Source: Zonotrichia leucophrys gambelii (Eukaryota; Chordata; Aves; Passeriformes; Passerellidae). Taken from it: a DNA stretch of 64,000 nt. The DNA lies in assembly GCF_028769735.1 (NCBI RefSeq), contig NC_088173.1:71174463-71238462 (forward strand), written 5' to 3'. Position 1 is the first letter of the stretch; each line of letters begins with the position of its first letter. The notes under the pieces are model-generated. The model saw only the letters and a list, made by a program, of their open reading frames with translations, ran no database searches and was not told where the DNA came from. The position numbers and the translations under genes were made by a program. Positions 52,975 through 64,000 of this stretch are shown here, one piece after another.

Positions 52975-53595
52975 CAGGGCTAGGGCAGGAACAGAGCTGG
53001 GAAGGGGCTGGAGGATCCCTGAGGGAGCTGGGCAGGGGCTGCAGAATCCCTGAGGGAGCTGGGAAGGGGCTGGAGAATCCCTGAGGGAGCTGGGCAGGGG
53101 CTGCAGAATCCCTGAGGGAGCTGGGAAGGGGCTGCAGAATCCCTGAGGGAGCTGGGCAGGGGCTGCAGAATCCCTGAGGGAGCTGGGAAGGGCTGCACAA
53201 TCCTGAGGAGTGGGGAAGGCTGGAGATCCCTGAGGGAGCTGGGAAGGGGCTGCAGAATCCCTGAGGGAGCTGGGCAGGGGCTCAGCCTGGAGCAAAGGAG
53301 GCTCAGGGGGCCCTTGTGGCTCTGCACAGCTCCTGCCAGGAGGGGAACAGGGACAGGAGCAGAGGGAACGGCCTCAGGGGAGCTCAGGGTGGGCATTGGG
53401 AGGAATTTCTCCATGGCAAAGGGAATCAGGAATTGGAAGTGCCCAGGGAGGTTTGGAGTGCCCATCCCTGAGGGATTTCCAGCCCTGTGGATGTGGCACT
53501 TGGGGACATGTGGCACTGGTGGCCCTCGTGCTGCTGGGCATGGTTGGACTCCCAGATCTCAGAGGGCTTTTCCAACCTCAGCGATTCCACGGTTT
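52975..53595 (+). mobile_element. CR1, second subtype, with about nine VNTR units
   Basis: Nine 31-bp units (52990-53285), in which GGGAAGG and GGGCAGG mostly alternate as a 62-bp dimer, are followed by the body seen at 30205-30655 and the tail CAACCTCAGCGATTCCACGG. Two units at 53185-53240 are short by several single bases. Confidence 0.88.
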
Positions 53596-53658
53596 ACATT
53601 CCAAGTGACCTCTTCCTGCACATCCTGAGGGCTGCAATGACCCTTTCCTGTTTTCCAG

Positions 53659-53742
53659 GGAGCCCGGGAGACCTTTGAGAGCTACTACAGGAAGCAGAGG
53701 AGAAAACAAGCGCGGCTGGTGCTGCAGCCTCCCTCCAACATG
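53659..53742 (+). CDS. EXOC6B: EXOC6B exon, 28 codons
   Basis: Phase 0 at both ends; reads GARETFESYYRKQRRKQARL followed by VLQPPSNM. The acceptor is CTGTTTTCCAG. The donor is ATG|GTCAGT, with C at +3 where A or G is usual, so it is slightly weak. The lysine/arginine cluster RKQRRKQAR is typical of Sec15. A CR1 element ends about 60 bp upstream, very close to the acceptor. Only 117 bp separate this exon from the next. Confidence 0.95.
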
Positions 53743-53859
53743 GTCAGTCTGTCCTGGAGCCTCATCCCGGGCTCCTGCTGCCCCTGGCTCATCCCCAAAA
53801 TCCCCCCTTGCCCTCGGCCACCTGGGTTTTAACCTCTGCTCCCTCTCTCTTTGTTGCAG

Positions 53860-53906
53860 CACGAAACTTTAGATGGCTACAGGAAGTATTTCAATCAAAT
53901 TGTAGG
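53860..53906 (+). CDS. EXOC6B: EXOC6B exon, 15 codons plus 2 nt
   Basis: Reads HETLDGYRKYFNQIV and leaves two bases (GG) that form a glycine codon with the first base of the next exon. The acceptor has a long pyrimidine tract (CTCCCTCTCTCTTTGTTGCAG) and the donor is GG|GTAGGT. The leucine after HET and the N before QIVG fit EXOC6B; EXOC6 has different residues there as I remember it. Confidence 0.94.
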
Positions 53907-54129
53907 GTAGGTGTTCCTTTTATACACGGCCCTGCTAAAAATGGGTGGCCTGGGCTGCTCAGGAGCCCAGAAAAAACCATGAGAGGAGGGAATGTTGGTA
54001 TTTTTGGTGGTCCTCAAAGCCAAAACAGGACAAAAAAAGAGGTGGTTTGTGCTTTTTAAGTGTTGTAAAGTGAATTTTATCCACTTTGCTGTGTCACTGA
54101 GGGGGGAGCGGGGAGGGACCTGCCAGCTC

Positions 54130-54322
54130 TTGTAGCAGTCTGTGAATTTCTGTGAATTTCTGGGATTTTCTATGATTTTTTTGGGGATTTTCTATGAATT
54201 TCTAGGAATTTTTATTAATTTCTGGGAAATTCTGGGATTTTCTGGGAATTTCTATGAATTTTTGGGGCTTTTCTATGAATTTCTAGGAATTTCTATGAAT
54301 TTTTATTAATTTCTGGGAATTC
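54130..54322. repeat. degenerate TTTCTATGAATTTCTGGGAA repeat
   Basis: Irregular units of about 10 and 20 bp made of TTTCTATGAA, TTTCTGGGAA and TTTTTATTAA. Confidence 0.85.
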
Positions 54323-54835
54323 AGGATAAATGATCCCTGTGGATTATGTTCATCTTTGGCCCCACTAATGACATGAATGGGCCCTCTGCTTTAATGATTC
54401 TGGAATATTTAACGATTATTCTTTAATTATTTTCCTGCTGGAGGAGGTGATTCTCCATTCCCCAGAGCTGCTTTTTTGTCACGCTCAAATTTAAATATAA
54501 ATCTTCCCAAACTGAGCTCTGAGAGGAGAATTCCAAAGGCTGCTGATCCATAAAAATTGGATAGGATTTGTTCTTTATTCATCTAATAATGAGAATTATT
54601 TCAATAATTCCACGTGTGCTGCTCCCCTCCTGCAGCTCCCTGCTCCTGGCCTGGATTTCCTTGGGAAAAACACCTGGAAATTCGTGTGTCACCATTTAAA
54701 ATGGCCACTCTCACCCTCATTCCTTGGAAAACACTTTGTTTGGAGCAGCAGAGTTGATCTCCAACTGGAGATTGGAGCAAATTGGGGTTGTCTGGAAATC
54801 TGGGAGCACGTAGTGGGCCTGGGTGGGAGAGGGGA

Positions 54836-55460
54836 TTTTCCCTGCAGTTCCAACATTTTTCCCTGCACTTAAAGCATTTTTCCCTGCAAATAAAGCGTTT
54901 TCCCGTGCAGATTATTAATTTTTCCTTACAGTTCCAACATTTTTTCCCTGTACTTAAAACATTTTTTCCTGCAGATAAAGCAGTTTTCCCTGTAATTAAA
55001 ATATTTTCCCCTGCAGATAAAGCATTTTCCCCTGCAAATTAAGCATTTTCCCTGTACTTAAAGCAGTTTTCCCTGCAGATAAAGTGTTTTCCCTACAATT
55101 CCAACATTTTCCCCTGTATTTGAATAATTTTTCCCTCCAGATAAAGCATTTTTCCCTGCAGATAAAGTGTTTTTCCCTGCAGATAAAGTGTTTTTCCCTG
55201 CAGATAAAGTGTTTTTCCCTGCAGATAAAGAGGGAAGATAAAGTTTTCCCTATACTTAAAGCATTGAAGATCAAGTTTTCCCTATACTTAAAGCATTTTA
55301 CCCTGCAGATAAAGGATTTTCCCCTGCAGATAAAGCAGTTTTCCCTGTATTTAAAGCATTTTCCCCTGCAGATGAAGTGTTTTTCCCTGCAGATAAAGCA
55401 TTTTTCCCTGCAGATAAAGCAGTTTCCCCTGCAGATATAGCAAGATAAAGCATTTTCCCC
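54836..55460. repeat. 21-bp minisatellite
   Basis: About 30 copies of TTTTCCCTGCAGATAAAGCA with one extra base in many. A unit of seven codons gives spurious SLQIKHF-type peptides on + and CRENCFI-type on -. Most units contain a PstI site (CTGCAG). Confidence 0.94.
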
Positions 55461-55748
55461 AGTTGTGATGGACTTGCTGCTGGCTGCAGCAGAGTTTAAT
55501 CCGTGGTTCTTGTGGGAATAACAAGGTGGAGAGCTCACGGAGGGGGAATTCTGCCTTTGTGTACACACAGGGAGGGTTTTACCTCCCTCCTCCAACCCAG
55601 TGAAATTAAAAATGAGGGAATGAAGCGCTTGGAGCTGCCTGGGTTTGACAAATCCCCCAAACCCAGAGCCCAGCTTTGCCCGAAGGGGCTCGGGGATGCC
55701 CTTGGACCCCTCAGATGTGAAGTTTCGGTGGCGTTTTCTGCGTTTCAG
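55461..55748. other. intron before the FFVVEDHILH exon, no feature recognised
   Basis: Short unique stretch leading to the GCGTTTCAG acceptor. Confidence 0.6.
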
Positions 55749-55869
55749 GTTTTTTGTGGTGGAGGATCACATCCTGCACACCACGCAGGGCCTGGTCAAC
55801 CGGGCCTACATTGATGAGCTGTGGGAGATGGCCCTGTCCAAAACCATCGCGGCCCTCAGGACCCACTCC
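55749..55869 (+). CDS. EXOC6B: EXOC6B exon, 40 codons
   Basis: The first base completes the split glycine; the exon then reads FFVVEDHILHTTQGLVNRAY, IDELWEMALSKTIAALRTHS. The acceptor is GCGTTTCAG and the donor TCC|GTGAGT. FFVVEDHILH is a signature of animal Sec15 proteins, and HTTQGLVNRAYIDELWEMAL points to the B paralogue. It leaves phase 0. The preceding intron carries a 21-bp minisatellite ending about 290 bp before the acceptor. Confidence 0.96.
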
Positions 55870-56189
55870 GTGAGTAAAAGCCCAGCAGAGCTCAGCTGTT
55901 GCTTGACTGTCCCTGACATGTTGCAATTCTGCCTTTTTTCCCCCCTCAGGATTCTTTGTTTTCCCTCTTTTCCAATGAGTGTTTAAAGGAACGACACAGA
56001 CACGCAGATAATTCTCTTTCTCTGGGTTGTTTTAGCCTCTTGGTTGGCTGAATTTCCCTACCAAACTCGATATTTTGAAGACTAAAATGGTGGTTTTGTG
56101 TTTTTGTCATTATTTAATCCAGAATTTTTGAGGAGCACCAGCAGAAGGAGTTGATTTGTCCCAAAAAAATGGGGGTGGGGAAGAGCATC

Positions 56190-57470
56190 TTTTTCAAAAA
56201 GCATGACCTTGTTTGATAGAGAGTCAGAGAATCCCAGGGTGGTTTAGGTTGGAAGGGACCTTGGAGATGACCTTGATCCCTTAAATTTAATGGCTGAAAA
56301 ATGGGCTAAAATTGGGCTGGAAAATGGGCTGAAAAACCAAATCCAGAGAGACAGAACCCCAGGAGAGAGCCAGGAGCACCTTGGGTGAAAATATGGGAAG
56401 AGAAGGACACAGATCTCTCTGATGAACCTGGATCTCTCAGGGATGAGGGACCCCAGAAGATTCCTGGTGTTCTCCATCCCCATCCACATGACTGGAAAGG
56501 GAAAATTGATCTTTCCCAAGAAAGCTGAATTTTCCCAAGAGGGGGGAAGGCATCTTTTTGGCACACATGGTCAGAGAATCCCAGAGTGGTTTGGGTTGGA
56601 GGGGACCTTAGAGATCACCTTGATCCCTTAAGTTTCATGGCTGGGAATGTGCTGAGAAATGGGCTAAAAAACCAAATCCAGAGAGACAGAACCCCAGGAG
56701 AGAGCCAGGAGCACCTTGGGTGAAAATATGGGAACAGAAGGACACAGATCTCTCTGATGAACCTGGATCTCTCAGGGATGAGGGATCCCGAGAAGATTCC
56801 TGGTGTTCTCCATCCCCATCCACGTGACTGGAAAGTTGATTTTTCCTAAAAAACTGAGGGCTAAAGCATCTTTTTGGCACACAGACAATCCCAGAGTGGT
56901 TTCAGTCAGAGGGGACCTTAGAGATCACCTTGATCCCTTAAATTTCACAGCTGGGAATGTGCTGAGAAATGGGCTGAAAACACCAAATTCAGAGGGAGAG
57001 AACCGCAGGAGAGAGAAAGGGTGAAAATATGGGAGGAGATGGGCATGGATCTCTCTGATGAACCTGGATGTCTCTGGGATGAGGGAACCCAGAAGGTTCC
57101 TGGTGCTCTCCATCACCATCCAGGTGACTGGAAAGTTGATTTTTCCCAAAAAACTGGTGTTACAGCATCTTTTTGGCACGCTGAATCATGACCTTGTTTG
57201 ATAGAGGATTGTAGAAACCCAGAGTGGTTTGTGTAGGAGGGGACCTTAGAGATCATCTTGATCCCTTAAATTTCATGGCTGGAAAATGGGCTAGAAATGG
57301 GCTAAAATAGGGCTGAGAAATGGGCTAAAAATGGGCTGAAAAACCAAATTCAGAGGGAGAGAACCCCAGGAGAGAGCAAGGGTGAAAATATGGGAAGAGA
57401 AGGGCACAGATGTCTGTGGGATGAGAGACCCCAGAAGGTTCCTGCTGTTCTCCATCCCCATCCAGGTGAC
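56190..57470. repeat. about 310-bp tandem repeat, four copies, containing a CR1 end
   Basis: Units carry CCAGAGTGGTTTGGGTTGGA + GGGGACCTTAGAGATCACC (a - strand CR1 end), then AAATGGGCTGAAAA, CCCCAGGAGAGAGC and CATCTTTTTGGCAC. The last marker recurs near 56553, 56868 and 57167. Confidence 0.92.
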
Positions 57471-58653
57471 TGCAGAGCCTCCTCCTTCCCCCCCAGCTCC
57501 TGTGCTGCCAGGGGGGATAAACACCAACCCCCCCAGCTGCAAACCTGTGTTTGTTTTGGTTTCAAGTGGGATTTTCTCGGGGCTGGCAGCAGGAGGCTGA
57601 GGCAGGCCCAGCCACGGGGTTTTTTTGGTGTTCCCAGCTTTGTTGCCACTCAGGTTGTTTCAAGTGGTGCCAAAGGGAACGCACGGAGTGGCTGCCAGGG
57701 GAGGCTTCTTCAGCAATCACAAAACATTCCCCGATTTCCCAACCCCTGTGGCCACCACCATTTATTTGCCCTGAGCGCTCCCAGTTCAACCAGTGCCCTG
57801 CATCCCAAACTGGGATCTGAGGGAGGGTCTCTCACCTCGCTGAGGCCATTTGGATCCTTCCAAGGCAGACAAATTTATCCCTGGATTTTCCTCCTCGCCG
57901 CAGACAGGGACATCTTTAATCACTGCTGATGCTTCAGGGCATTATCTTTCTTCCTGACTCTCCTTTTTGGACAGGGAGATGGAAAACGTGTGTCTCCCAG
58001 TCCTTCCCTCTGATTAATGGAGCTGTTCCTCCTGGAGTTTCCAGCGAGCTTTAAATCCCACTCCCTTTCCAGCCGGGGATCACTGATTCTATATTTGGGC
58101 AGCCTCTGTCTCAAACTCCACATTTTCCAGCTCATTTTTGGCTGCTCTTGGGAAGCCCAGGGGGGACTGGGGCTGCTCTGGGGACACTGAGCTGTGTCTG
58201 GGGGGTTTGGAGCAGGATAAATCCCCGTGCTGGAGCTGCAATCCAGCGTGTTTTCCCCTCAGCCTGGCTGAGATGCTTCATTACCATCAGACACAACACA
58301 GTAAATATTAAATGAGAGGCAAATGAAATGAGAGGTAAATATTAAATGTCACCCTGTCCCATGGTGACAACACCGTGGGAGCCATCTCCTCTCACTGCCC
58401 AGCAGCTCCTGGGCAGTTTTAGACACACCTCAGGTGTCTCTGGGGCAGCCCAGAGCCTTCTCCAGCCCGGAGAGCAGAGCCTTATCAGCCTTATCACCCT
58501 TATCAGCCCTGCCTCACTGCTCCTGGGCAGCGTTTATCAGATTAACTCTGGGCAGTGTTTATCAGATCTCTGGTGGCACAGGGGGGCTCAGGGCAGGGTT
58601 TGGGCTGTGCCACACAGTCACAGCTGTGTTTTCCTCTCTGCCCTCCTCTCCAG
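57471..58653. other. intron, no feature recognised
   Basis: Unique-looking intronic sequence. Confidence 0.6.
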
Positions 58654-58725
58654 TCCTACTGCTCTGACCCCAGCCTGGTGTTGGACCTGAAGAACCTCAT
58701 TGTGCTCTTTGCCGACACGCTCCAG
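58654..58725 (+). CDS. EXOC6B: EXOC6B exon, 24 codons
   Basis: Phase 0 on both sides; reads SYCSDPSLVLDLKNLIVLFA then DTLQ. The acceptor CCTCCTCTCCAG has a strong pyrimidine tract and the donor is CAG|GTACGT. The central DLKNLIVLFADTLQ is conserved in Sec15 from flies to mammals (family knowledge). Serine at SDPSL, where I recall asparagine in human EXOC6B, would be a conservative change. Confidence 0.96.
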
Positions 58726-58968
58726 GTACGTGGGGCCTCTCCTGGTGCTCCCAGAGCTCCAGCAGTGCTTTGGTGCCTGGGCTGGGCTGGCCAAGCTCTT
58801 TTTTCGGCATTTCTAGGCCAAAAAAATGCCAGAATTTTTTTGGCATTTCTGGATGGCCTAAGGGACAGTCTGGTTTGGTCTGTGCAAGGACCAAGCTTGA
58901 GCCTGGGACAGCTCTGGGTGGTGCTCCCTTGGTCAATCACCCCCTGAGCCCCTCCAGCTGCACCAGGG

Positions 58969-59252
58969 GTGGTGCTAGAGGAGGATTTGCCCCTGGTCAA
59001 TACAGACAGTGAGCCCCAGCTACACCTGGGGTGGTCCTGGAGGAGGATTTACCCCTGTTAAATACAGACAGGGATGCCCAAGGGTGGTGCTGGAGGAGGA
59101 TTTGCCCCTGTTAAATACAGACAGGGATCCCCAGGGGTGGTGCTGGAGGAGGATTTGCCCCTGTTAAATACAGACAGTGATCCCCAGCTGCACCAGGGGT
59201 GGTCCTGGAGGAGGATTTGCCCCTGTTAAATATAGACAATGATCCCTAGCTG
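58969..59252. repeat. 51-62-bp tandem repeat
   Basis: About five copies of GTGGTGCTGGAGGAGGATTT + GCCCCTGTTAAATACAGACA with variable spacers. It ends about 40 bp before the exon at 59291. Confidence 0.92.
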
Positions 59253-59290
59253 CCTGCTGGGGGTTTCATTCCCTTCCTGCTGCTCTGCAG

Positions 59291-59388
59291 GGTTATGGCT
59301 TCCCTGTGAACCAGCTCTTTGACATGCTGCTGGAGATCCAGGACCAGTACAGCGAGACCCTGCTGAAGAAATGGGCTGGGGTCTTCAG
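59291..59388 (+). CDS. EXOC6B: EXOC6B exon, 32 codons plus 2 nt
   Basis: Reads GYGFPVNQLFDMLLEIQDQY then SETLLKKWAGVF, leaving AG of an arginine codon finished by the next exon. The acceptor is CTGCTCTGCAG and the donor CAG|GTGAGA. The sequence matches the conserved Sec15 segment just before the C-terminal domain. A roughly 55-bp tandem repeat ends some 40 bp before this exon, and a CR1 copy starts about 100 bp after it. Confidence 0.96.
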
Positions 59389-59481
59389 GTGAGAGGCTCC
59401 AACAGAACCTCCTGAGACACCCCTCACTGAGGGGTTCTGGCCCCTGTGTGGAAGTTTTTGAGGGATCAGTCACAGAAAGGT

Positions 59482-59955
59482 GGAATGGGTTGGGTGGGAA
59501 GGGACCTTGAAGCCCATCTGGGTCTTTCCCTGCTGGAGTAAATTCAGAGGAGACCCCAGAGCTGCTCTGGGGCTGGGAGCCAGGCTGGCAGAGCTGGGAA
59601 TGTTCCCTTGGAGAAGGGAAAAATCCAGGGAATCCTCAGAGTGCCTGAAGGGGCTCCAGGAGAGCTGGAGAGGGACTGGGGACAAGGCCTGCAGGGACAG
59701 GAGCCAGGGAATGGCTCCCACTGGGAAAGGGGAGATTGGGCTGGGATCTTGGCAAGGAATTGCTGGCTGGGAGGGTGGGCAGGGGCTGTGGCTGGAATTC
59801 CCAGATTTGCTGTGGCTGCCCCTGGATCCCTGGCAGTGCCCAAGGCCAGGTTGGATCCACCTGGGACAGTGGGAGGTGTCCCTGCCATGGATGGGTGGCA
59901 CTGGGTGGGATTTAGGGTCCCTTCCCGCCCAAACCATTCCATGGTTCTGTGCCCT
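59482..59955 (+). mobile_element. CR1 tail, long copy, with a small - strand CR1 end before it
   Basis: 59482-59520 (TGGGTTGGGTGGGAAGGGAC) is a - strand end. 59545-59955 is a + copy close to the one at 49205-49605, ending AAACCATTCCATGGTTCTG. Confidence 0.88.
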
Positions 59956-60117
59956 CGCTCCATCACCGAGCTGTGGCTGCTTTGGGCCATCCCTGGCTGC
60001 TGCTGCAGGAATTTGGGATCCCACCTTAGCCTGGCAGCAGCCTCTGGGAATCCCCTGGCCCAGCAGGAAAACTTTCCCCTCTCAGTTGTCTCCCTGACTC
60101 TTCTTTTCTTCTCCCAG

Positions 60118-60223
60118 AAATATCCTTGACTCGGATAACTACAGCCCCATCCCGGTGTCAAATGAAGACGTTTATAGGAAAATTGTTGGGCAGTTCCCAT
60201 TCCAGGATGCTGAACTTGAAAAG
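60118..60223 (+). CDS. EXOC6B: EXOC6B exon, 35 codons
   Basis: One base completes the split arginine, then NILDSDNYSPIPVSNEDVYR, KIVGQFPFQDAELEK. The acceptor is TTCTTCTCCCAG and the donor AAG|GTAAAT. NYSPIPV and FPFQD are shared by Sec15 proteins. The SNEDVYRKI segment differs from the human B form as I recall it (TSEEMYKKV), so it looks like a faster-evolving loop. It leaves phase 0. Confidence 0.95.
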
Positions 60224-61072
60224 GTAAATCTTGGAATGGGGAGCATGGCCTGGCCTGGCCTGGCTGCTGGGGCAGGAGAACCTCACACCCTTTGTGGGCA
60301 TTTAAAGCATCCAAAAAACCCCAAATCAACTCCCCAACCCAAATAAACAATAAAAGAGGAAGGAAATCAATGGGGAAGAACCAATATTCCTCCCATGGGA
60401 TGCATTTCCTTGTGTGGATGAGGGAAGTGGGATTTGTATTTCTCTCAGAGTGTTGTGTCACACACGTAGAAAAATCCTCTTCCACTGGCATTTTATTCCT
60501 ATTTTATGGACCCTGGGATTGACCTTTTTTCATTTTAGTCTCATATTTAGAGAAAAAGAGCCCAGAAAAGTGATGGTTCTTGGCCTTTGCACGAGCATGT
60601 GCTTGGAAAACCAAAGTGTGTCCAGATGTCCCCCAAATCCTAAATCCACACCTGGAAGGCAGCAAATCCAACCCTGATGATCCCAGTTTGGGGTTCAGGT
60701 TTCTGTGTCCTGCCCCAAAATTCAGTCCTGGGGTTCAGCTGCTCCCTGCCCCTCCCAGCTCTGAGTGCTGGGGGTAAAAACTGGGAAAATTTGGTGTTGG
60801 AAAATCTGTTTGCTCCTGGATTTTGGGTAGCACCTGGGGAAGGTGAGCAGGAAAACACTTTGTGCATGGTGGGGGAGGAATTCCAGGTGTTCCCAAGGAG
60901 GGAGGAGAAAGCAGTTGGGAGAGGGAATGGCTCCAAAGCCCTCCTGCTCTATTTGGGATTATCTGCTCTCCTCCTTGGCTGAAGTGTTGATAAAATCCAG
61001 GATAAATCCCAGAATTGCTCTGCCTGCCTGGGAGAGCCCTCCCTCTGGAACTGTTCTCCCCCTGTTTTCCAG
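60224..61072. other. intron, no feature recognised
   Basis: Unique-looking 849-bp intron. Confidence 0.6.
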
Positions 61073-61182
61073 CAACCCTTCCCAAAGAAGTTCCCCTTCT
61101 CGGAGTTTGTGCCCAAGGTTTACGGCCAGATCAAGGAGTTCATCTACGCCTGCCTCAAGTTCTCCGAGGACCTGCACCTCAG
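61073..61182 (+). CDS. EXOC6B: EXOC6B exon, 36 codons plus 2 nt; start of the Sec15 C-terminal domain
   Basis: Reads QPFPKKFPFSEFVPKVYGQI then KEFIYACLKFSEDLHL and leaves AG of a serine codon (SSTE would be expected next). The acceptor is CCCTGTTTTCCAG and the donor CAG|GTGGGA. This is about where the conserved C-terminal Sec15 domain begins, the part that contacts Rab11 in fly Sec15 (family knowledge). The next exon is not visible in the remaining 2.8 kb. A mitochondrial insert starts 53 bp past the donor. Confidence 0.95.
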
Positions 61183-61235
61183 GTGGGAGCCGTGCCCTCA
61201 GGGAGCGGGCCTGCCTCCTCTCCTGAGGCCCTGCT

Positions 61236-61308
61236 GGAAATGTGCCTGAGCACTAAGGGTCACTGCGATACAGTGAACGTGGAGCTATACCAACCCTTTA
61301 ATTTCCTA
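61236..61308 (+). pseudogene. mitochondrial tRNA-Ile pseudogene, copy 1
   Basis: A 73-nt sequence starts GGAAATGTGCCTGA and ends ATTTCCTA, the typical ends of bird mitochondrial tRNA-Ile; the anticodon is GAT within CTGCGATACAG. Several substitutions lie in stems, for example CTGC where copy 2 has CTAT. Full length, but in nuclear DNA it is a relic. Confidence 0.85.
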
Positions 61309-61322
61309 CCTGAGGCCCTGCT

Positions 61323-61386
61323 GGAAATGTGCCTGGGTCACTATGATAAAGTGAACATGAAGCTATACCAACCCTTTCATTTCCTA
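61323..61386 (+). pseudogene. mitochondrial tRNA-Ile pseudogene, copy 2 (9-nt deletion)
   Basis: A 64-nt partial duplicate of copy 1. It keeps the ends and the anticodon loop CTATGATAAAG but has lost nine bases just after GCCTG. Its anticodon arm looks closer to the mitochondrial form than that of copy 1. Confidence 0.85.
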
Positions 61387-61391
61387 GTGCT

Positions 61392-61462
61392 TAGAAAAGC
61401 AGGAATCCAACCTACACCAGAGGGAATCAAAGCCCTCCACGCTTCCTTTATATGACTTTCTA
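61392..61462 (-). pseudogene. mitochondrial tRNA-Gln pseudogene
   Basis: Read on the - strand this is a 71-nt tRNA beginning TAGAAAGTCATATAAAGG and ending TTTTCTA. Position and strand, between tRNA-Ile and tRNA-Met, fit tRNA-Gln of vertebrate mitochondria. It abuts or shares one base with tRNA-Met. Confidence 0.82.
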
Positions 61463-61530
61463 GTAGGGTCAGCTAAACAAGCTATGGGGCCCATACCCCA
61501 AAAGGGATGGTTCAACTCCTTCCCCTGCTA
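61462..61530 (+). pseudogene. mitochondrial tRNA-Met pseudogene
   Basis: A 69-nt sequence AGTAGGGTCAGCTAA ... CCCCTGCTA with the CAT anticodon in GGGCCCATACCCC. It directly precedes the ATG of ND2, as in vertebrate mitochondrial genomes. Confidence 0.88.
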
Positions 61531-61920
61531 ATGAACCCCCAAGCAAATCTAATCTTAATTATTAGTCTACTCCTAGGAGCAACCATTATTGTCTCAAATA
61601 ACCACTGAATTGTGGCCTGGACCGGCCTTGAAATCAACACACTCGCCATCCTCCCATTAATCCCAAAATCCCATCACCCACGAGCCATTGAAGCTGCCAC
61701 TAAATACTTCCTGACCCAAGCAGCTGCTTCTGCCCTTGTCTTATTCTCCAGCATAACCAGCACATGGCACACCAGACCGTGGGACATCACCCAACTCACC
61801 CACCCAGTGTCCTGTCGGATCCTCACCTCAGCAATCACAATAAAACCAGGACTAGTGCCATTCCACTTCTGATTCCCAGAAGTACTCCAAGGCTCTCCTC
61901 TCACCACCGGCCTCCTCCTG
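61531..61920 (+). pseudogene. ND2 5' fragment (NADH dehydrogenase subunit 2, mitochondrial origin)
   Basis: The first 130 or so codons of ND2, about 38% of the usual 346. Under the vertebrate mitochondrial code the frame is open throughout: TGA at codons 26 and 114 reads as tryptophan (NNHW, FHFW), while in the nuclear code both are stops. Recognisable ND2 features include MNPQANL at the start, WTGLEINTLAILPL, HHPRAIEAATKYFL and TQLTHP. No frameshift is seen. It is a passenger of the NUMT and is not a nuclear protein gene. Confidence 0.9.
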
Positions 61921-62754
61921 CGCATGGAGCCTGTCCAGGCTGGAAGTGGCTCTGGAGCAGTGGGATTTTGGCTGGACACCCCTGCTCCTGCAGGGGGAGA
62001 TCCCAGCATGGTTGGGGTTGGGAGAAACTTTGGGGATTGTTTCCAAACCCATCACTGGACAATTTCCATGGTGCTCCAAGCCTCCTCCAGCCTGGCCTTG
62101 GACACTTCCAGGGAATTCCATGTTCCCAGGACAATCTCAGTTGGGGCTGTTTCCTCTGAGATGTTTCTGTGGCATTCCTTTAATAAATAAATGAATGGAG
62201 ATGTCTGGAGAGAGGCTGTGGTGGCCACTCGTCCCCAGGGTCTGCTGGAGCACCTCTGATCTCCCCAGGCCTCCCCTCACAGCTCCCCAAGGAATGGGAA
62301 TCCCGTGGTTCCATGGAAGTGTTGTCAGGAGGGCTCTGAGGGTTGGATTTTTGGTCAGGAACGAGTTTCAGCTGCTGGTTTCGTGCTTTTGTTGTTCTTG
62401 TTTCTTCGGGGAGTTTATATACAAATAATGTGATTTTTTTTTTTTTAAAGCCTGCAAAATATTCCATGTGTTTACCCTCCCTGCTCCATCCCAGGGTGCT
62501 TTGATGCTCGTTTCACCCATGTGTACGTGTGTGAGAGTGAAAACCAGCAGGGTCTGCCAGGAACTGAGAGCTGGGGCTTTGCCTTTGCATCAGCAGCGTT
62601 CAGAGCTTGGGAGAGGCTGAGAAATGCAGGACAAGAGTTTGGCTGGAGGGATTCATCCTCCTTCCCTTCCCTGGGCAAACACGAGGCTGGATTGGGGTGG
62701 GGGGAGTTCCACCTCCTTGGGAGCTTCATATCCTGGCCATGACCTGACCCTGGA
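61921..62754. other. intron after the NUMT; CR1 trace
   Basis: 62010-62115 contains CR1-like words (TTGGGGTTGGGAGAAACTTT, CCTTGGACACTTCCAGGG). 62437-62449 is a short poly-T. Nothing else recognised. Confidence 0.5.
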
Positions 62755-63165
62755 GCTGTGGAGAGAGCCCAGAGGAGGCCCCAGAGCTGCTCCCAGAATT
62801 CCAGAGCCCCTCTGCTCTGGAGCCAGGCTGGCAGAGCTGGGAATGTTCCCCTGGAGAAGGGAAAACTCTAGGGAATCCTCAGAATCACTAAAGAGGCTCC
62901 AGGAGAGCTGGAGAGGGACTGGGGACAAGGCCTGCAGGGACAGGAGCCAGGGAATGGCTCCCACTGGGAAAGGGGAGATTGGGCTGGGATCTTGGCAAGG
63001 AATTGCTGGCTGGGCTGGAATTCCCAGATTTGCTGTGGCTGCCCCTGGATCCCTGGCAGTGTCTAAGGTCAGGGTGGATCCACCTGGGACAGTGGGAGGT
63101 GTCCCTGGAGTTGGATCCCAATGGGATTTGAGGTCCCTTCCATCCCAACCCATCCCATGCCTGCT
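62755..63165 (+). mobile_element. CR1 tail, long copy
   Basis: GAGAGCCCAGAGGAGGCCCC through the GAGAGGGACTGGGGACAAGG block to GAGGTCCCTTCCATCCCAAC. Confidence 0.9.
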
Positions 63166-64000
63166 GTGGAGCTGGGACAGCTCTGGGGACTCAGTGGCTG
63201 TTCCAGTGCCCCAGGCTCTCCAGGATTTTCCTGCTTTCCCCTGGAGCCAAGGATTCTCCCTGGAGTCCTTTTCTTATTGGAGAAAGGGACTCTCTACTGG
63301 CAATTTGGAGAGTCCCTTTCCCTGTGGGTTGCTCTGGGAGCTCAGGAGTTTCTCCCCCATGTTCCACCTCACCCTTGCAGTGGTGGCAGCTTCTCCTCCT
63401 CCTGCTGGTGGCTCCCAGGGCCCCTAACCCGGGCTCACCATGGCCCCTCTCCCTTCCCAGAGCCCATTCCTGTGGGTGCTGCTCCCCGTGGCTGGGATGA
63501 TTGGCCCTGGCAGGGCAGGGAGCAGAGGTGTCCCCGTGGGTCCCTCCTGGGGCTCCCACCAGACCCATTATTAAAATTCCTTTCCACATTGGATTTTCCA
63601 GCCCTTTCGGAGCAGCACGGGGGGAGGGGAGCCCCAGCTCCAGCTCTCGCAGCCAAACATTTGGAATATTTCTCTGCAAACCCCTGTTGACACTTTCTTC
63701 ATTTCACCCTGACAGCTTGAATTAGGTTTTATTAGGAAGCTTGGCTACAAAGCCGGCAGCGAGTTCCCTTTTCTCCTCCCTTTCTTTTTTCGCCTGGCCC
63801 TGTCATTTACGGAGCACCCCGGAGTGCTGGGGGTCAGCCCGTCACTCACAGGGGCCTGGAGGTCACCACAGCTGCCACAGGATCCGGGACAGGAGCTGTC
63901 ATTATCCCAGACAGTTCCCTTCAAGCCTTTTCCTGCACAGCACAAAGTGCAGCTCACATTTTATGGGTTTTTTTTTCTTCTCCCCCCACCACTAATTATT
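63166..64000. other. intron to the window end, no feature recognised
   Basis: No EXOC6B exon or repeat recognised. The next expected coding words (SSTE...DDM) were not seen. Confidence 0.5.

Follow-up and report, generated by a model that had tools for sequence, protein, structure and literature searches.

An intron of EXOC6B in Zonotrichia leucophrys gambelii contains a NUMT which, with a probability of about 0.83, is an old, decaying fossil of the ordinary kind in Passerellidae, of emberizoid origin and with little or no effect on EXOC6B. The insert is found in a window of 64,000 nucleotides (the whole stretch of DNA analysed; contig NC_088173.1, positions 71,174,463 to 71,238,462), where mitochondrial tRNA remnants and the first part of ND2 follow closely on a coding exon (Table 1).

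The host gene is recognizable from its exons, which map in order on the + strand between 10111 and 61182 (51 kb), several of those in the window matching Zonotrichia EXOC6B at 100%. No EXOC6B exon was found after 61182 within the window, and the host intron is therefore at least 2.8 kb in size. The exon upstream of the insert matches Pfam Sec15_C (6.3e-10) and the fly Sec15 structure 2a2f (5.4e-12), and its 36 whole residues recur without change in 14 EXOC6B records (among the best 120 of 791), all 14 of which derive from Zonotrichia, Melospiza or Junco. These three genera belong to Passerellidae, and the EXOC6B proteins most likely place the bird in this family. The preceding exon (60116-60223) has the form SNEDVYRK, which is the same in six of the 14 records (Zonotrichia, Junco), while four Zonotrichia albicollis records have SNDDVYRK and four Melospiza records SNEEVYRK. 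The donor of the 61073-61182 exon fits the consensus at 7/9 positions, the highest simple count in the interval 61170-61930; with the first intron base at 61183, the tRNA-Ile remnant at 61236 is located 53 bp downstream. The sequence-only reading had placed a NUMT close to an EXOC6B splice donor, which is supported by the Sec15_C, fly Sec15 and sparrow EXOC6B matches. Long tandem arrays can also be observed in the EXOC6B introns (53003-53282, 54139-54321, 54836-55442, 56222-57307 and 58954-59253; scan of 53000-64000), among them a 335-bp repeat (approximately 3.3 copies) and a 31-bp repeat (approximately nine copies).

Table 1. Positions in the window of the EXOC6B exon and of the parts of the adjacent insert.
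Feature	Position	Strand	Details
EXOC6B exon, Sec15 C-terminal domain	61073..61182	+	110 bp; donor GT 61183-61184 (CAG/GTGGGA)
NUMT	~61222-61920	+	probable ND1 stop/spacer, tRNA-Ile x2, tRNA-Gln(-), tRNA-Met(+), ND2 codons 1-130
ND1-end/spacer block, copy 1	61222..61235	+	probable; AGG stop 61226-61228, 7-nt spacer
tRNA-Ile remnant, copy 1	61236..61308	+	73 nt; acceptor pair 7 G-A; C for U33 by reading
ND1-end/spacer block, copy 2	61309..61322	+	probable; 61222-61248 = 61309-61335, 27/27 nt
tRNA-Ile remnant, copy 2	61323..61386	+	9-bp deletion, D arm by reading; acceptor pairs intact
tRNA-Gln remnant	61391..61462	-	Rfam RF00005 30.1 bits; ARAGORN -mt anticodon ttg
tRNA-Met remnant	61462..61530	+	Rfam RF00005 30.9 bits; ARAGORN -mt anticodon cat
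ND2 pseudogene fragment, codons 1-130	61531..61920	+	TGA codons 26, 114; AGA codon 82

Homology to mitochondrial DNA (mtDNA) is evident from Rfam, Pfam, bovine ND2 and ARAGORN in mitochondrial mode, and the retention of mitochondrial gene order, which had been read from the letters, is borne out by the Rfam, ARAGORN and Pfam matches and by comparison with passerine gene tables. The order tRNA-Ile, tRNA-Gln(-), tRNA-Met(+), ND2 is that of passerine mitochondrial DNA, and the insert agrees with the tables for the Black Drongo (PMC8317954) and a wheatear (PMC7283232) in the 1-nt overlap between tRNA-Gln and tRNA-Met and in having no spacer ahead of ND2. The base asymmetry of the ND2 part is likewise mtDNA-like (C 0.36, G 0.14), against C 0.23-0.24 and G 0.25-0.30 in the two larger flanks. 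Both flanks are nuclear, with the EXOC6B exon and its donor at the left, while the right flank leaves ND2 after codon 130, with a right edge at approximately 61917-61920.

The left edge probably lies further upstream than had been supposed. A 14-bp block, CCTGAGGCCCTGCT, is found in identical form ahead of each tRNA-Ile copy; when read as mtDNA, it consists of a leucine codon followed by the stop AGG and a spacer of 7 nt. The ND1 stop is given as AGG for Emberiza godlewskii (PMC10443981) and as AGA for the Black Drongo, where an 8-nt spacer precedes tRNA-Ile (PMC8317954). Because CCTGAGGCCCTGCT precedes both tRNA-Ile copies, the left edge is most likely at 61222 or earlier, 39 bp past the donor and not 53. 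Of the earlier placement of the insert from 61236, the position of tRNA-Ile at +53 thus stands, but the insert itself probably starts at or before 61222 (+39). A presumed further extension to the left, through an AGLPP-like reading at 61205-61219, is not relied on. The 8-bp word GCCTCCTC occurs at both edges of the insert (61213-61220 and 61910-61917); an edge match of this length was reached by 96 of 2000 shuffles, and the word could be a microhomology involved in the joining.

The tRNA remnants are unequally preserved. The tRNA-Gln and tRNA-Met scores are just above the RF00005 gathering cut-off of 29 bits in a search of 61100-62100, while the default Rfam search of the whole window lists tRNA-Gln and not tRNA-Met, and neither is called by ARAGORN in default mode. 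The two tRNA-Ile copies, which are nearest to the donor, obtain no tRNA score in Rfam (E<=1) or in the mitochondrial mode of ARAGORN, and they look damaged. They belong to a tandem segment, absent from the sequence-only reading, in which 61222-61308 recurs at 61309-61386; when aligned, the copies differ at 6/78 sites, in addition to a 9-bp gap. The duplication may represent either a nuclear tandem event or the joining of two overlapping mtDNA pieces. A duplication spanning the nuclear-mitochondrial junction, and hence made in the nucleus, was considered and dropped, since the 14-bp block can be read as the AGG stop of ND1 with the spacer after it and the duplication may therefore lie wholly within mtDNA-derived sequence.

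The ND2 fragment matches Pfam PF00361 (2.1e-13) and residues 1-130 of bovine ND2 (1.7e-35), confirming the proposed 130-codon stretch from 61531, and codon reading also recovers TGA at codons 26 and 114. The frame had further been described as open only under the mitochondrial code, which is incorrect: codon 82 (61774-61776) reads AGA, which NCBI table 2 treats as a stop. An open frame would require TGA to be decoded as Trp and AGA as Arg at the same time, and the vertebrate mitochondrial code provides no such joint reading. Residue 82 is glycine in all 67 songbird ND2 haplotypes compared, as well as in the hoatzin. The AGA stop indicates that this copy of ND2 is no longer functional, beyond mere divergence, and the loss of function is also apparent from eight changes at 93 invariant sites.

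The relationship of the fragment to living ND2 proteins bears on whether the insert is a recent arrival, restricted to a genus or species, as had been proposed. Such a young NUMT would be consistent with the lack of any frameshift or indel across the 390 bp of the 130-codon ND2 part and with the two TGA Trp codons, although these codons, read against the remainder of the fragment, where three of the five Trp codons are TGG, do not show youth. It is also favored by the make-up of the comparison, which rests on named relatives other than Zonotrichia, Junco and Melospiza (best 120 of 7645). The ND2 search scored 7999 sequences, 7645 of them significant, and the best 120 were used, giving 67 distinct haplotypes over the first 130 residues; none of the listed rows is named for these three genera, but each row stands for a cluster with unnamed members, and the bird's own ND2 may be hidden in one of them. 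Among the best 120 of 7645, the closest ND2 shares 114/130 residues (88%) when ATA is read as Met, or 86% in the search table, where ATA is read as Ile, and the closest matches are spread over several families. Differences per 130 residues amount to 16-17 for Emberizidae, 17 and 19 for two Passerellidae, 19 for one member of Calcariidae, 16-19 for other emberizoids, 17-19 for Estrildidae (with which P0116, Poephila, was counted), 17-18 for Motacillidae, 18-19 for Nectariniidae, 19-20 for Ploceidae and 18-21 for Passeridae (best 120 of 7645). The listed ND2s, taken as a proxy for the bird's own mtDNA, hence show no near identity to the fragment. A recent insert should almost match the ND2 of its own genus and be clearly nearer to Passerellidae than to other families. 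As the two Passerellidae ND2s that are named lie no nearer to the fragment than those of waxbills, youth is rejected, as is a restriction to the genus or species.

The decay of the fragment points in the same direction. Twelve residues of the NUMT (sites 9, 17, 20, 23, 45, 77, 78, 82, 83, 96, 103 and 106) are private, occurring in 0/67 haplotypes, and eight of these are at sites which are invariant in the 67 haplotypes and the same in the hoatzin. When each of the 67 real haplotypes was left out in turn, the private count reached a maximum of three, with at most two at invariant sites. The distant but functional ND2 of the hoatzin has 14 private residues, seven at invariant sites, so that the private count alone shows divergence, and a long separate history as mtDNA could produce such counts as well. 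The NUMT has an end branch of 0.21, compared with a median of 0.011, in a tree that is poorly resolved. Together with the AGA stop at codon 82 and the divergence of the tandem tRNA-Ile copies, these private changes contradict the recent arrival that had been claimed, and a young NUMT limited to the genus or species is considered very unlikely.

The same features bear on whether mtDNA reads were joined to the EXOC6B intron during assembly. An intact ND2 would be expected in the bird's own mtDNA, and the decayed ND2 therefore argues against a chimeric join: with 12 private replacements and a stop under the mitochondrial code, this part is unlikely to be the functional mtDNA of the bird. The tRNA-Ile stretch is furthermore doubled, with diverged copies, and an assembly chimera can be regarded as extremely improbable.

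Residue 6 of ND2 gives an indication of the lineage in which the insertion may have taken place. The NUMT has Asn at this site, as do 37 of the 43 emberizoid haplotypes, with Ser in five, His in one and Lys in none, while Lys is found in 24/24 other haplotypes and in the hoatzin. This suggests an insertion after emberizoids split from the other sampled families, as judged from a single site in a sample that does not include Fringillidae; Asn6 could also have arisen within the NUMT by one change.

Two measures of age were derived. The first takes the 12 ND2 changes over 295 nonsynonymous sites (4.2%; 95% limits: 2.1-7.5) and the second half the distance between the tandem copies (4.1% per copy; 1.4-9.5). 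At the neutral rates quoted for birds in PMC2946954 (2-3.9e-9 per site per year), the ND2 changes give 10.7-20.9 Myr (95% over both rates: 5.5-37) and the tandem copies 10.4-20.3 Myr (95% over both rates: 3.7-47), while the eight invariant-site changes alone, at the same quoted rates, give only 7.1-13.8 Myr. The agreement of the two measures suggests that the insertion is approximately 10-20 Myr old, within an error range of approximately 4-47 Myr, the bases being proteins and one copy pair, with wide errors. Changes that preceded insertion would inflate the ND2 age, and gene conversion would lower that of the copy pair. At an age of approximately 10-20 Myr, the lack of indels over the 390 bp of the ND2 part is a mild surprise.

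At the protein level, all 14 Passerellidae EXOC6B records (P0130-P0140, P0142, P0143 and P0145) join the exon directly to SSTEVDD, and no insert-derived residues are present in these 14 records among the best 120 of 791. If the relatives are without the insert, their EXOC6B records do not test splicing. Nineteen of the 120 listed EXOC6B records are without the FSEDLHLSSTEVDD junction, none of them from a sparrow. In four of these 19, from a crow (P0128), a jay (P0129), a swallow (P0144) and a crocodile (P0141), other residues are found right after the exon, suggesting read-through annotation at the donor or an alternative exon.

The tRNA remnants could alternatively form a cluster of nimtRNAs (intronic mitochondrial tRNA remnants) whose cloverleaf-like RNA folds help the EXOC6B donor to be recognized. 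Like nimtRNAs, the tRNA-Gln and tRNA-Met remnants are mitochondrial tRNA homologues within an intron, and both still score as tRNAs. The remnants start at +53 and +140 (tRNA-Ile), +208 (Gln) and +279 (Met) past the donor, which can be compared with the human-cell reporter results given in PMC7722341, where a lone mitochondrial-type tRNA within the intron enhanced splicing most strongly at 50-100 bp past the donor and a cluster of nimtRNAs most at 200 bp, and where reverse-oriented nimtRNA-Trp and nimtRNA-Tyr were active. However, antisense human mtRNA-Gln gave no increase in a three-exon reporter in that study, and nimtRNA-Tyr lowered exon inclusion when placed close to the donor within the downstream intron of a three-exon reporter, a set-up that resembles the arrangement at the EXOC6B donor (PMC7722341). 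The conservation scores it presents furthermore place most nimtRNA remnants outside negative selection, and in the sparrow insert the two remnants nearest to the donor are those that are unscored and look damaged. While a role for the tRNA remnants in splicing is conceivable, an aid to donor recognition by such a cluster appears quite unlikely, and it is highly doubtful that the remnants, having landed by chance and been doubled in the best-acting stretch past the donor, tune EXOC6B splicing across New World sparrows.

We suggest that the insert is instead an old NUMT that has decayed in place. A piece of mtDNA extending from the end of ND1 to codon 130 of ND2 would have been captured at a chromosomal break close to the donor some 10-20 million years ago, the recipient probably being an emberizoid songbird. 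The stretch comprising the ND1 end and tRNA-Ile would have been doubled in tandem, either by nuclear duplication or through the entry of two overlapping mtDNA pieces, and the sequence would since have drifted without ND2 constraint. The insert presumably leaves with the spliced intron, most likely with little or no effect on EXOC6B.

If it is old and probably common to sparrows, the insert would provide a datable marker of shared descent, as well as a test locus for the effect on splicing of intronic mitochondrial tRNA remnants outside mammals. The contamination of ND2 barcodes that had been anticipated would be possible only for short amplicons within the region from tRNA-Met to ND2 codon 130, because the rest of ND2 is absent from the insert; where short ND2 primer pairs co-amplify it, the product is recognizable by AGA at codon 82.

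The papers retrieved on NUMTs in sparrows and Zonotrichia, judged by titles and the opening of abstracts, contain no account of the EXOC6B insert. A search for mitochondrial DNA in a collection of viral contigs gave one weak match, L001, with 31% identity across residues 220-275 of the query, and in a collection of genome contigs 27 stretches fit a pattern, none of which encoded a relative. NUMT counts of 52 for the zebra finch and 37 for the chicken are given in Triant and Pearson 2022 (PMC9723244). The sparrow insert resembles bird NUMTs in being a short mtDNA fragment with mitochondrial gene order that undergoes unconstrained decay in nuclear DNA, but differs from bird NUMTs at large in its location 39-53 bp from the donor of a coding exon and in its doubled tRNA-Ile stretch; the present analysis also gives estimates of its age and lineage. 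With the nimtRNAs described by Hoser et al. 2020 (PMC7722341) it shares the presence of mitochondrial tRNA remnants in the intron of a protein-coding gene, 50-350 bp past the donor. Unlike those nimtRNAs, which that source describes for human and mouse, it has a bird host, two of its four remnants are unscored as tRNAs, and it is known here from sequence alone. The NUMT itself is of an ordinary kind, while its position and tRNA content are unusual.
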